From positions 117,554-181,553 of the forward strand of contig JAFSPM010000001.1 of the NCBI GenBank assembly GCA_017442855.1: 64,000 nt of DNA, in the 5' to 3' direction. The stretch is from Bacteroidaceae bacterium (GTDB lineage Bacteria; Bacteroidota; Bacteroidia; Bacteroidales; Bacteroidaceae). How positions within the stretch are numbered: the first letter of the stretch is position 1; every line of letters starts with the position of its first letter. The position numbers were made by a program, and so were the translations under genes. The notes beneath the pieces are model-generated. The model was not told where the DNA came from and did no database searches. It worked only from the letters and a program-made list of their open reading frames with translations. Shown piece after piece: positions 11,163-60,359 of the stretch.

Positions 11163-11250
11163 CTGTTCCCCCCCAGGGGAACTGCTTGTTCCCTTTGGGG
11201 GAACAGTCTGTTCCCTCCTTGGGAACAAAAGGGAACAGATATCAGAACAA
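11163..11250. repeat. 22-bp-period array of GTTCCC..GGGAAC palindromes (4 units)
   Basis: Four consecutive 22-bp units start at 11163, 11185, 11207 and 11229. The first three each carry an inverted pair GTTCCC/GGGAAC with variable centres. The GGGAAC arm recurs at 11177, 11199 and 11221, with a decayed CAGAAC at 11243. The array lies between convergent genes, past the GH97 terminator. The period is not a multiple of three and there is no open reading frame. Confidence 0.85.
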
Positions 11251-11298
11251 GTGTAAAGCTTATTGCTTTTCCGTCTTTAGAAGATAGATAGCAGGATT

Positions 11299-11750
11299 TT
11301 AGAAAATAGATAGCAGGATTCCAATAAGGATAATGTATCTCACCGCCTTGCCTATGGTCATGGCGGTAATAGTGATGGGCAAGTTGCTTCGCATCAGTCC
11401 TAAGGCCACAGCTATAGGTCCGCCAATGAAAGGCAGAAAGGCAAAGAAAGCCATCCAGGCACCTTTGCCTTGCAAGAACTTTTGCGCTTTGAGTACGTGC
11501 TTTTCCTTGATATGGAAATATTTCTCAAGCCATTCCATCTTGCCTAAGCTACCCAACCAATAACAAGTCATGCCTCCCATCGTATTGCCGATGGTAGCAG
11601 CAATAAGGATGCCTATCGGGTTCAATCCCAACGAGAGAAGTCCTGTAAGTACAAGTTCAGAGCTGAAAGGAATCAGACTACCTGCCAAGAAAGCGGTGAG
11701 CAACATACCCACATAGCCCCAGTCGGTCATCAGTTGAATAAATGCATCCA

Positions 11751-11751
<1 letters not shown>
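11299..11751 (-). CDS. Small VTT/DedA-like (YqaA-type) membrane protein
   Basis: A 150-residue membrane protein with about four hydrophobic segments. It shows the DedA/VTT features: GSLIPFSSELVL near the N-terminus and FFAFLPFIGGPIAVALGLMR in the second half, containing the conserved F-x-P-x-x-G-G pattern. DedA-family proteins are linked to lipid flipping and membrane homeostasis; the role of short YqaA-type members is unclear. It is the last gene of a long minus-strand run and shares one base with the preceding gene. Confidence 0.8.
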
Positions 11752-24041: not shown

Positions 24042-24137
24042 TCTTGTATACAAGATAAAAATATAATTTTCCCAACTTTTTTCTTGTATACAAGATAAAA
24101 TTAGTATATTTGCACTAAATTTTAAGTATAAAAGATA
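24042..24137 (+). promoter_or_regulatory. Three 40-bp-spaced palindromic sites over the ATPase promoter
   Basis: The perfect 14-bp palindrome TCTTGTATACAAGA occurs at 24042-24055 and 24082-24095. A degenerate third copy (AAGTATAAAAGATA) lies at 24124-24137, up to the start codon. The central GTATA recurs at 24046, 24086 and 24126, exactly 40 bases apart. The second site covers a TTG (24084-24086) 18 bases before TATATTTG (24105-24112), so a bound protein would block the promoter. Confidence 0.75.
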
Positions 24138-25342
24138 TGAATGCTTTAATTAGACAAACTTATCTTGATAGTATTGAGAAATATCTAGGCAAGAATATCA
24201 TAATCATTTTGACAGGTCAACGACGAGTTGGCAAAAGTTATATTCTTCGTTTGTTACGAGATAAAATTAAAACAGACGAACAGATTAATGCCATTTTCAT
24301 AGACAAAGAAAAAAAAGAATTCGATTATATCAAGACATACCAGGATTTAAATAGTTTTATTGATGAAAGGCGTGACAAAAGAAAGCGAAACTTTATTCTT
24401 GTCGATGAGATTCAGGAGATAGAAGAGTTTGAAAAAAGTGTGCGTAGCTACTATGAAGAACCTGACATTGAGATTATTATCACAGGTTCCAATTCCAATA
24501 TGTTAAGCAGTGATTTGAGTACACGTATAGGTGGACGGTATAAAGAAGTCTATGTCCAGGCTCTTAGCTATAACGAGTTCATGCAATTTCATCAGTTGCC
24601 AGATTTAGACGATACCTTATCTAAGTATATCCTTTTCGGAGGCCTCCCTGGTTTGGTGAAAATGGGACTTGACGAGCAAGATGCGCTTGAGTACCAGACT
24701 GATGTTTATCATACAGTACTATTAAAAGATGTCATTATGCGTAATCAGATACGCAATGTTCCTTTTCTTGAGAATTTGGTACGTTTTCTTGCAGACAATA
24801 CAGGTAAAATAATATCAGCTAACAGCATAGCTAAATATATGAAGTCGCAAGGAGAAAATGTCACTTCAACCATTGTCACAAATTATCTGAAGTATTTTTG
24901 TGATGCCTATGTTACCCATAAAGTGAACCGTTATGATATTCATGGGAAAAAATTGTTTGAGAGCAACGATAAGTACTTTTTTGAAGATCACGGCATCCGT
25001 AATGCTTTAGCAGGAGGAACACGCGAGGGTGACATTGAGAAGGTAATTGAAAATATCATCTACAATCATCTCATTCGTCTTGGCTACGAAGTAACAGTAG
25101 GGCAGTTACAATCAAGCGAAGTAGATTTCGTATGTACCAAGCCTGATGGCAGAAGAGTATATGTGCAAGCATCCTATATCATAGCTGATGATTATACTCG
25201 TGAGCGTGAATTTGGCAATCTTCGAGCCATAAAGGACAACTATCCCAAGTATGTCATATCTATGACTCCTTTAGTCACTCGTAATGATGATAACGGCATC
25301 ACTCATTTGCATTTGAGGAAGTTCCTGACAGAAGGGTTGTAA
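24137..25342 (+). CDS. AAA ATPase with C-terminal DUF4143 domain
   Basis: A 401-residue AAA_14-type ATPase: Walker A GQRRVGKS (27-34), Walker B FILVDEIQEI (about 94-103), arginine-rich sensor region GGRYKEVY. The C-terminal DUF4143 domain contains SSEVDFVCTKPDGRRVYVQASY, which resembles a PD-(D/E)XK nuclease core. These proteins are numerous in Bacteroidales, often strain-variable, and their function is not established; proposed links are to mobile or defence functions. It stands alone between repeat-rich non-coding stretches, with a probable operator array upstream. Confidence 0.88.
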   Translation: MNALIRQTYLDSIEKYLGKNIIIILTGQRRVGKSYILRLLRDKIKTDEQINAIFIDKEKKEFDYIKTYQDLNSFIDERRDKRKRNFILVDEIQEIEEFEKSVRSYYEEPDIEIIITGSNSNMLSSDLSTRIGGRYKEVYVQALSYNEFMQFHQLPDLDDTLSKYILFGGLPGLVKMGLDEQDALEYQTDVYHTVLLKDVIMRNQIRNVPFLENLVRFLADNTGKIISANSIAKYMKSQGENVTSTIVTNYLKYFCDAYVTHKVNRYDIHGKKLFESNDKYFFEDHGIRNALAGGTREGDIEKVIENIIYNHLIRLGYEVTVGQLQSSEVDFVCTKPDGRRVYVQASYIIADDYTREREFGNLRAIKDNYPKYVISMTPLVTRNDDNGITHLHLRKFLTEGL

Positions 25343-25733
25343 TACAACTATTATTTCATTTACCAAACATTTGCTTGTCTTTTTCTTGAGATGAACAGTC
25401 TGCTGCCATTAGGGACATAAAGCCCCCAAGTCAGCATCCTGTTTTGGCAAATGGAAAAACATTAAAGCTTTATAGCCCAAAATCAAACAAAAAACATCAT
25501 TTAGTAGTTCAAGTGAATTACCTATACAGGGCTATTCGTTCTATATCATTCTGACGATTTTACCAAATAAATCCCCCTCTTTTTAATCGAATCACTCATA
25601 AAATAATTTGTACCATTATGTCTCAGATACATAGTTGACTTCCATCCATCATCTCCAATAAGACTGATTAAAAGATTCGGTTGGGTTTGCGTGTTTTGAG
25701 CTTTAACACCAAAATAAAAAAGAATTTTGTTTA
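25343..25733. other. Non-coding stretch after the ATPase gene
   Basis: AT-rich, no recognisable gene apart from the doubtful minus-strand frame listed separately. I see no clear terminator hairpin or RNA gene here. Confidence 0.5.
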
Positions 25734-25743
25734 TTACCTTCAC
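25546..25743 (-). CDS. Doubtful small ORF (65 aa)
   Basis: A 65-residue frame opening with GTG inside the left arm of the 200-bp inverted-repeat element. The C-terminal half (MYLRHNGTNYFMSDSIKKRGIYLVKS) has a protein-like composition, but I recognise no family and the start lies in a repeat. It may be a gene remnant or chance. Confidence 0.25.
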   Translation of the reverse strand: MKVINKILFYFGVKAQNTQTQPNLLISLIGDDGWKSTMYLRHNGTNYFMSDSIKKRGIYLVKSSE

Positions 25744-25933
25744 CCTTCACCTTTTCTTAAAAGATGCTGATATTTATAATCTTTTTAGGTGAAGGTAGGG
25801 GTGAAGGGTGAAGGTTGAGGTCAAGAATGGGTGACGGACGGGTGAAGGATGGTGAAGGTTAACGGCTTTAACCTTCACCTAGATAGAATATGTGTTTCAT
25901 GATATATCTTGAAAAGGTGAAGGGTGAAGGTAA
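25734..25933. repeat. 200-bp MITE-like element with 23-bp perfect terminal inverted repeats
   Basis: The 23 bases at 25734-25756 are the exact reverse complement of 25911-25933; both are built of the word GTGAAGG or its complement. Further GTGAAGG copies (25789, 25801, 25808, 25842, 25852, and GTGACGG at 25831) lie inside, and 25851-25879 forms its own 12-bp hairpin (GGTGAAGGTTAA / TTAACCTTCACC). There is no coding capacity for a transposase. Confidence 0.75.
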
Positions 25934-25946
25934 AAGTTTTAATTAG

Positions 25947-26254
25947 CTTACTACTAGTAAACCCACCGCTTACTACTAGTAAACCTATTGCTTACTACTA
26001 GTAAACCTATTGCTTACTACTAGTAAGCCGATATATTCTCGAGAGAATCTTGAGACGAGAACCGTTCTCAAAGGCAACGAGAACCGTTCTCGTTAGCGAC
26101 GAGCTACGTTCTCGCTTATTTCTTTCTTCATGGAGATATTTAGAACACATTTTGGAGGCTTAAAATTTAGTTGAACTAAGCGGGTCGTTTAAAAGAAGTA
26201 AAAGGAGGGTTTACTTGAACTAAGCCGCCCTTTTACTTGAAGTAATAGGAGAGA
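25947..26254. repeat. 22-bp-phased array of three palindromic word families (14 units)
   Basis: Fourteen consecutive 22-bp steps. Family A, CTTACTACTAGTAA, starts at 25947, 25969, 25991 and 26013. Family B, GAGAACCGTTCTC and a variant GAGCTACGTTCTC, starts at 26057, 26079 and 26101, preceded at 26035 by the related palindrome ATTCTCGAGAGAAT. Two weakly related steps follow (26123, 26145). Family C, TTAcTTGAAcTAA-like, starts at 26167, 26189, 26211 and 26233. All starts fall on one 22-bp grid although the words differ. Confidence 0.88.
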
Positions 26255-26328
26255 AGTTTTCGATCAATCATTTTGTGGAAAAATAGAACACTTTAGCCGT
26301 TGACTAAGCTTCGTTTTTTTTCTCCCTC

Positions 26329-26372
26329 GTTAGGAAAAAATATTTTCCTAGTTAGGGAAAAAGTTTTTGCTA
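26329..26372. repeat. Two further 22-bp units, shifted phase
   Basis: GTTAGGAAAA..TTTTCCTA (26329-26350) and GTTAGGGAAA..TTTTTGCTA (26351-26372) are 22 bases each and palindromic, but offset about 8 bases from the grid of the array upstream. They precede the 3' end of the exonuclease gene. Confidence 0.7.
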
Positions 26373-26413: not shown

Positions 26414-26932
26414 CTACAGTAAGTCGAGGGCAATAGCGGCACAAGCCTCGGCGTCGGCCAATGCGTGGTGGTGATGTTGCAAGTCGAAGCCACAAGCGGA
26501 GGCAACAGTGTGAAGTTGGTGGTTGGGTAGGGAGTGCCCGAATTGGCGACGGGCAGCTAAAAGGGTATCATAGAAAAGATAGTCGGGGTAGTCTAATTGA
26601 TAGACCTTGAAGACGGCCTTCAAGCAACCTTCGTCGAAACGGGCATTGTGGGCAACAAAGGGCACATCGGTCTTGTCAGGAAAGATTGCAGCAATTCGTT
26701 GCTCAATCTCTTTCCATACTTTCGGGAAGATTGGGGCATCATCAGTATCGTTGGGGGTAAGACCATGCACTTGTTGGCACCAATAGTTGTAGTAATTGGG
26801 CTCTGGTTGGATAAGCGAATAGTAGGAATCGGCCACCTCGCCATTACGCACAATGACGATGCCCACCGAACAAACACTACATGGTTGTTGGTTGGCAGTT
26901 TCAAAATCGATGGCTACGAAATCCCTAAGCAT
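26414..26932 (-). CDS. DEDDh 3'-5' exonuclease (DnaQ/epsilon-like)
   Basis: A 172-residue stand-alone exonuclease. The metal ligands are readable: Exo I FVAIDFETAN (Asp9, Glu11), Exo II AHNARFDEG, and Exo III HHHHALADAEACA with the DEDDh histidine and final Asp. The family includes the Pol III epsilon subunit and many small exonucleases; with no polymerase domain and no partner gene the exact role (repair or RNA processing) is open. It lies downstream of the flavodoxin gene, separated by a strong terminator, and ends at the repeat-rich stretch. Confidence 0.9.
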   Translation of the reverse strand: MLRDFVAIDFETANQQPCSVCSVGIVIVRNGEVADSYYSLIQPEPNYYNYWCQQVHGLTPNDTDDAPIFPKVWKEIEQRIAAIFPDKTDVPFVAHNARFDEGCLKAVFKVYQLDYPDYLFYDTLLAARRQFGHSLPNHQLHTVASACGFDLQHHHHALADAEACAAIALDLL

Positions 26933-60139: not shown

Positions 60140-60359
60140 GGAGTGCCTTCTACGGGTGCTCGCAGTATCTGCTACGGGTCGTTCCAAAGCCTCCCATGAG
60201 TCATCGCAGTATCTCCTATGGGGGTATGGCAGATACTGCGACGGGTGATAGCAGATACTGCATCTGGTGGTGGCAAACCTTCCGTCACCTGATAGCAAGT
60301 TCTCCCTTCACTCATAGCATACTTTCCTTTTGCTCATAGCAGCTATTCCCATCAAAAAC
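60140..60359. repeat. 22-bp-period degenerate array (10 units)
   Basis: Ten consecutive 22-bp units start at 60140, 60162, 60184, 60206, 60228, 60250, 60272, 60294, 60316 and 60338. Shared positions are AGCA at the unit start, a central TCC/TGC and TCAT/TGAT at the end. Units 2 and 4 carry GCAGTATCT, units 5 and 6 its reverse complement AGATACTGC, so neighbouring units can pair. There is no reading frame across it. Confidence 0.85.

Follow-up and report, generated by a model that had tools for sequence, protein, structure and literature searches.

Cooperative operators and centromere arrays carry palindromic sites at a spacing of two helical turns. Other described systems that bear comparison with the locus studied here are the iterons of plasmid and satellite Rep origins, CRISPR arrays, and the REP/BIME elements, for which the abstract of PMC2817692 gives a copy number of >100 per genome. 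In the open-access full-text literature, to which our search was confined, we found no description of arrays in which different palindromic words keep a common 22-bp step. We analyzed one such array in a stretch of 64,000 nucleotides, hereafter the window, which forms the end of contig C15 of a Bacteroidaceae genome (G000; 2.76 Mb, 80% complete).

The original prediction had placed several unrelated palindromic words on one exact 22-bp grid between two converging genes. Direct reading of the sequence bears out this placement: 12 of 12 words start at 25947 + 22k, with the family A word CTTACTACTAGTAA at 25947, 25969, 25991, and 26013 and the family A' units TTAGTTGAACTAA, TTAAAAGAAGTAA, TTACTTGAACTAA, and TTACTTGAAGTAA at 26167, 26189, 26211, and 26233, respectively. 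The shifted-phase pair of 22-bp units noted after the array corresponds to family D, whose period is 22 and whose start lies 4 bp off the grid, and the two flanking ORFs do converge (Table 1). TRF detected four arrays over this region, three of period 22 (A, C, and D) and one of period 44 (A'). The palindrome centers step by 22.0 bp within family A and by 21.5 bp, not exactly 22, at the A-B and B-C junctions; from family C to A', the distance is 88 bp in sum, across an intervening weak palindrome. Spacers between the words are 8–9 bp long. The view of the words as unrelated has to be qualified: A, A', and the spacers have parts in common. The 480-bp left flank of the array contains eight copies of CCTTCAC, counted on both strands. 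The right neighbor, which we take to resemble a DnaQ-type exonuclease, is referred to below as the exonuclease-like gene. The window gave no Rfam match at the gathering threshold.

Table 1. Arrays, word families, and neighboring genes in the window
Feature	Position	Strand	Description
Second array	11165–11320		GTTCCCN5GGGAAC units at 11188 and 11210, looser N6 unit at 11165
Left neighbor, AAA_14 + DUF4143 ATPase	24137–25342	+	Flank, outside the array
Iteron region	25737–25930		Direct and inverted GGTGAAGG/CCTTCACC words flanking an AT-rich core
Word family A	25947–26034		Four 22-bp units, TTACTACTAGTAA; TRF period 22, 94% match
Word family B	26035–26056		Single unit ATTCTCGAGAGAAT
Word family C	26057–26122		Three units: GAGAACCGTTCTC at 26057 and 26079, GAGCTACGTTCTC at 26101
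Wordless grid positions	26123–26166		Two 22-bp slots (26123, 26145), no clear word
Word family A'	26167–26254		Four units of TTA(C/G)TTGAA(C/G)TAA type; TRF period 44, 2 copies
Word family D	26325–26372		Two CCTMGTTAGG units alternating with an A/T palindrome; period 22
Right neighbor, 172-aa protein	26414–26932	-	Flank; served to find the orthologous site
Third array	60152–60349		Nine consecutive 22-bp rows of varying words (GCAGTATCTSCT, GCAGATACTGC, CATAGCA...)

Two further lag-22 arrays are present in the window. In the second array, two units TTTAGAARATAGATAGCAGGAT occur at 11276 and 11298, 88 bp past 11188, and the last unit overlaps the 3' end of an ORF at 11299–11751 (-). The third array has a lag-22 score of 30/44, and its palindromy is not significant (p = 0.40).

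The words of the window's array are re-used in the source genome. A, B, C, or D words are found at ten loci, the window included, the others being C6, C12, C14, C15:80k, C28, C31, C37:307k, C44, and C47; only A-type words are seen at C37:307k and at C14, which lies about 0.2 kb from the end of its contig. The order of the units varies: A-B-C-D at C6, C-B-A at C15:80k and C47, B-A-B-C at C12, and A-B-A' at C28. Among directly successive junctions of the A or A', B, and C families (named by eye), 16 of 16 fall within 2.5 bp of a multiple of 22 and 15 of 16 within 1.5 bp, although homologous loci have a common history and these junctions are therefore not independent events. Off the grid, and outside these 16, are the A-to-A' distance at C47 (48 bp), the A blocks at C15:80k (76 bp), and the steps to D; the off-grid A-to-A' gaps and family D speak against the reading of the arrays as binding sites that we develop below. 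ATTCTCTAGAGAAT, allowing at most one mismatch, occurs at seven places in the genome, all seven within arrays that also hold A or C words. Exact places in the 80%-complete genome, with variants not counted, number 8 for the A word, 12 for the C word, and 10 for the GTTCCC word of the second array. The ten exact GTTCCCN5GGGAAC places, where 0.16 would be expected by chance (arithmetic from base counts alone), lie at four loci and are all in a 22- or 44-bp register, and most of their N5 loops differ, CCGTA or its complement recurring three times. At one mismatch, 16 places were found, 15 of them in five arrays; this count is only twice that of a backwards control (8), so the weight rests on the exact places and their register.

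Two named genomes of a species-genome collection, from which the window's own or very near genomes may have been left out, match the A-A pattern: RUG12062, an uncultured Bacteroidales, and RGIG9675, a Bacteroidaceae from yak, in which one of the loci is an ortholog of the C47 array. The C word is present in 10 of 99 genomes of the group, at one place each in the nine other than the window's own, and is thus not common to the group as an array. Viral contigs yielded no confirmed locus when searched with the A-A pattern and with the VapE, 460-aa family, and DUF6078 proteins described below.

Because the same words are re-used at ten loci, some of the phase preserved at these loci could reflect common descent. 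A single ancestral A-B-C-D element with iterons might have been copied around the genome as a dispersed modular repeat of the REP, MITE, or BOX kind, bringing its grid along. Some of the ten loci have unique stretches in common, seven of the ten adjoin iteron regions (by eye), and the presence of the array at the orthologous site varies between species, all of which would be expected of such an element. A copied element does not account for the changed unit order on the same grid, for the 29 of 36 intergenic arrays without an iteron-like flank, or for the fact that arrays of other words, also in other species and in a second family of the order, step by 22 bp as well, as shown next. We regard it as quite unlikely for the arrays in general, and it survives mainly for the A-B-C-D subset; the arrays described below suggest that independent arrays of unrelated words all step by 22 bp, which speaks against it.

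With ORFs of at least 90 aa masked, we scanned intergenic DNA at each lag for places where at least 28 of 44 bases match those one lag away. The scan covered 119 kb of intergenic DNA in seven samples, drawn from six genomes of the group: 400 kb of contig C37 and the window (both G000), 100 kb of Prevotella oral taxon 299, and 200 kb each from G134, G057, G085, and G039. The intergenic 22-bp peak predicted for the source genome and its relatives was found: lag 22 gave 36 places versus 4 at lag 21, 7 at lag 23, and 21 at lag 44 (one array may count at several lags), and the remaining 33 lags in the range 14–50 together gave 26 (~0.8 per lag), lag 33 contributing 1. The outcome that had been named as refuting the prediction, no excess of 22-bp periodicity in other intergenic DNA, is thus not what the genomes show. 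The lag-22 places were distributed as follows: 10 in C37, 3 in the window, 8 in G134, 4 in G057, 7 in G085, 1 in G039, and 3 in Prevotella; the single place of G039 is no more than was seen at some of its other lags. First-order Markov resampling produced 0.000–0.005 such places per lag and sample, and periodic places are therefore not due to chance. Some arrays step by 21 or 23 bp, another point against the binding-site reading. Perfect 12–13-bp palindromes in the C37 sample showed no lag-22 peak.

The arrays occur in several gut and mouth bacteria of the order Bacteroidales and, as far as sampled, are restricted to this lineage. The outgroups, four genomes listed under the same class, four under the same phylum, and 200 kb of E. 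coli K-12, together supply 94 kb of intergenic DNA; they gave 2 places at lag 22, no more than at their other lags. Parabacteroides distasonis, which belongs to another family of the order, gave 4 places at lag 22, 2 at lag 23, and 1 at lag 21 in three 50-kb pieces (15.6 kb intergenic). Its arrays lie near 36755 in L322 and near 25499, 34692, and 37435 in L324 (the locus being inferred from gene tables), and as a named commensal this species is usable for bench work on 22-bp arrays. TRF, with coding DNA included, detected 34 period-22 arrays in 1.364 Mb of the group versus 4 in 1.0 Mb outside it.

The arrays lie between genes. When all DNA of the 400-kb C37 sample was considered, the 10 windows with at least 28/44 matches at lag 22 were the 10 places of the intergenic scan, which indicates that the arrays avoid genes. 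By gap type, 14 of the 36 arrays are in convergent, 15 in tandem, and 7 in divergent gaps; convergent gaps are over-represented (14/36 versus 63/316 gaps overall, p = 0.007).

A common step does not entail common words. The 36 arrays carry many, examples being GTTCCC-N5-GGGAAC, GCAGTATCT/AGATACTGC, TCCCGTAGTAGA, and CATAGCGAACG in the source genome, TTTACTTCCGCTAAA in G134, TTCCTAACTAGGAA and TATGGACAT in G057, CCACGGCCGTGG and TTTAAAAGGAAC in G085, CCTATAGGCGG in G039, and AAAAGCATTGCTTTT in Prevotella. We assessed palindromy in arrays that had been picked by direct repetition only, by comparison with copies in which the 22 columns were permuted. At p < 0.05, 11 of 36 intergenic arrays (Fisher 3e-8) and 10 of 18 VapE-linked arrays (Fisher 5e-9 when the 15 from other genomes are combined) were singly palindromic, the combined Fisher values being too small since related loci are not independent; the other 25 of 36 intergenic arrays did not reach significance singly, which counts against the binding-site reading. 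A narrower, first palindromy score was weaker (p = 0.0008 outside the window's genome), and in upstream regions a palindrome-lag score gave no signal outside the window's genome, whereas a direct-lag score gave one. Between successive palindrome centers of different words, 49 of 87 distances fell within 0.5 bp of a multiple of 11, compared with 175 of 1178 in a C37 control, although the 11-bp class is inflated, as a pair of equal palindromes at a 22-bp distance generates an extra center midway; the 21.5-bp (10) and 43.5-bp (6) classes are unaffected by half-way centers. The best single period of these different-word centers was 10.6 bp.

Compensatory evolution of the palindromes was considered and rejected: single cases are suggestive (CCTAGTTAGG / CCTCGTGAGG), but the general test, comparing neighboring units, failed, with 117 of 334 doubly changed pairs still pairing where one-third is expected (p = 0.27), a result that weighs against the binding-site reading.

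Palindromic units could also act as RNA, in the form of tandem stem-loops serving as terminators or stabilizers at 3' ends. The bias toward convergent gaps would agree with this, as would predicted folding, which is better than in resampled copies, with mean z values of -1.67 and -2.06 on the two strands and values below -2 in 13 and 20 of the 36 arrays, respectively. On the transcribed strand of 24 arrays, G.U and A.C mismatches did not differ significantly (20 versus 12, p = 0.11; 77 versus 75 under a relaxed count, p = 0.47), which makes RNA hairpins less likely. In addition, A/T-rich words would form weak stems, a precise two-turn step is not needed by hairpins, and 7 of 36 arrays are in divergent gaps. 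We consider this explanation very unlikely.

A mutational origin, without selection, is to be weighed against the same data. In Bacteroidales, replication, repair, or template switching might duplicate ~22 bp at palindromic seeds in a fixed 22-nt step, so that each array would have grown from its own seed and then drifted, hence the differing words. Many words with one step across arrays, the likeness of adjacent units, the lack of a compensatory signal, and the 25 arrays without significant palindromy of their own are all in line with such copying. It does not readily explain that phase is kept across dissimilar words in changed orders, that GTTCCC arms persist at five loci with mostly different loops and spacers, or that convergent gaps are favored, and it would need to act almost only between genes. 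The placement of arrays 108–162 bp before seven genes of one family, described below, is a further difficulty. On balance, copying in a fixed step appears unlikely; if it were nevertheless the cause, the arrays would record a lineage-specific mutational mechanism with a two-turn step.

The site of the window's array was compared in ten other species by reading the DNA that lies downstream of the exonuclease-like gene. The two most similar species, G134 and G027 (protein identities of 90% and 84%, respectively), keep both iterons and 22-bp units there, with lag-22 scores of 31/44 and 33/44, respectively. Their iteron words are CTCTTCAC and CTTACAACC, as opposed to CCTTCACC in the window, and their palindromes are partly other (TTCTCATGAGAA for B and CCTCGTGAGG for D). 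No array was found within the first 760 bases at the site in G057, G023, G013, G069, G071, G006, G114, and G008, the last of which retains an iteron fragment. Of the marks of a MITE- or BOX-like mobile repeat, namely defined ends, a target duplication, and empty sites, neither ends nor a clean empty site were found at the orthologous site. Across other species, 11 of 58 flanks of exonuclease-like genes have an array, two of which (G134 and G027) are the orthologs of the window site.

A comparison of L059 with L044 seemed at one point to indicate purifying selection, as the array has 2 differences in 305 bp and the next gene is 12.6% diverged. This interpretation was abandoned: the low-divergence tract (L059:7200–9100 versus L044) spans the array, the iterons, and most of VapE, and because it continues into coding DNA, recombination explains the low divergence equally well.

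A subset of arrays adjoins ~400-aa helicase genes that combine a VapE-like with a DUF3874 domain (as scanned in three of them). In a set of 22 VapE loci taken from a larger match list (L056, L054, L059, L114–L131, and L133; a 712-aa C31 homolog, L132, with 29/44 at lag 22, was dropped), 18 have a lag-22 array (at least 26/44) no farther than 1.5 kb away, upstream in nine cases and downstream in the other nine, corresponding to 18 of 44 flanks, one of which is only 553 bp long. In 13 of the 22 loci, VapE has three or more copies of one 7-mer on either side, the word differing by locus, and in 10 of the 13 the two sides are in opposite orientation (by eye); such two-sided iterons resemble an origin with its own initiator. 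The idea that the arrays are part of VapE/iteron mobile elements fell once they appeared throughout intergenic DNA, and because flanks of exonuclease-like genes also have arrays, VapE is an enriched neighbor, not the owner. Iteron-like flanks accompany 7 of 36 intergenic arrays versus 11 of 420 random positions. By eye, the array-iteron-VapE block is apparently inverted between L056:8050–10237 (G000) and L114 (G008), both blocks lying between related TolC and response-regulator genes.

Beyond VapE, an array often precedes a small gene encoding a DUF6078, an HU-HIG-like, or a ~460-aa family protein. An array accompanies 9 of the 30 DUF6078 genes read, including the seven most similar to the query, in which it starts 108–162 bp before the matched gene start; the closest DUF6078 proteins have array words in common (by eye). 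It is this placement before seven genes that fixed-step copying does not explain. Of HU-HIG-like genes (one of two scanned), two loci have an array, with a step of 21. The ~460-aa family, with one match each in 9 of 158 genomes (L194–L202) and no Pfam hit for the one partial sequence scanned, has a 22-bp array directly upstream in three of the nine genes and a 23-bp array in one. The 23-bp-step array, at L197, consists of ACCTCTNNAGAGGT-type palindromes whose arms vary per unit. Seven of the nine genomes also have a short VapE gene (the other two were outside that draw). Sequence searches of the PDB with the two candidate proteins yielded no usable match (best E values of 0.37 and 0.38).

The best explanation of these findings, to which we give an even chance of being correct, is that the arrays are sites for dimeric DNA-binding proteins bound side by side. 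Each ~22-bp unit would be an imperfect palindrome for one dimer of a putative DNA-binding protein, and the dimers would abut along the helix, each covering about two turns. A unit would then work only at a two-turn step from its neighbor, whatever its letters, and mutual contact between the bound proteins would keep the phase across word families. The variety of words might reflect several members of one protein family, each recognizing its own word, or a single protein of loose specificity. That the step is common to changing words argues for a geometric constraint, and side-by-side dimers of ~22 bp each are consistent with both the step of about two turns and the lack of a rise at lag 33. 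We infer that a protein contacting one face of the DNA at every second turn, as proposed in the original prediction, is still the best reading, with the proviso that, at 10.5 bp per turn, a 22-bp step amounts to ~2.1 turns and the units would rotate slowly along the array. The likeliest function would be a local nucleoprotein block that separates neighboring transcription units, and the convergent-gap bias fits such a border role. In a subset of loci, the array may instead be the operator of the adjacent DUF6078, HU-HIG, or ~460-aa family gene.

A more far-reaching possibility, which we consider doubtful, is an unrecognized nucleoprotein system across the Bacteroidales, in which related dimeric proteins, each with its own palindromic word, would co-polymerize on 22-bp arrays between genes, whose borders they would mark or insulate. 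If true, it would represent sequence-addressed bacterial chromatin in which the spacing is conserved and the words change quickly. That many unrelated words in one bacterial order follow one spacing rule points strongly to a common physical constraint on its intergenic DNA. The arrays provide a ready bait list for finding the protein, which would alter our view of gene borders in gut commensals.

Compared with the known systems, the arrays resemble each in some respects. With CRISPR they have regularly repeated, partly palindromic units in common; their spacers are 8–9 bp rather than unique and ~30 bp. With plasmid and satellite Rep iterons they have in common tandem sites of ~22 bp and, in a subset, the adjoining VapE-type helicase gene. 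An array beside an initiator and origin is seen in this subset (18/22 VapE loci) and not in the class as a whole, in which 29 of 36 arrays have no iteron-like flank, and the iterons here are a separate region of 7–8-bp words beside the array. REP/BIME elements, which are associated with a Y1 (RAYT) transposase and GTAG/CGTC tags, are like the present arrays short extragenic palindromes in small arrays with several sequence families per genome, and extragenic palindromic units are what we observed (all C37 places intergenic; palindromy in 11/36). They differ from the present arrays in copy number, each word here having few exact copies (8–12 places in the 80%-complete genome), and in the 22-bp step that unrelated words here have in common. 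Cooperative operator and centromere arrays are similar in that, at some loci, the array is just upstream of a possible regulator gene. The best period of 10.6 bp between different words and the common step of 22 would suit sites on one helix face, but the 11-bp class is inflated by half-way centers and 22 bp makes 2.1 turns. The arrays described here differ from cooperative operator and centromere arrays in occurring in several families of one order and in mixing many words on one grid, and no regulator gene was found for the window's array.
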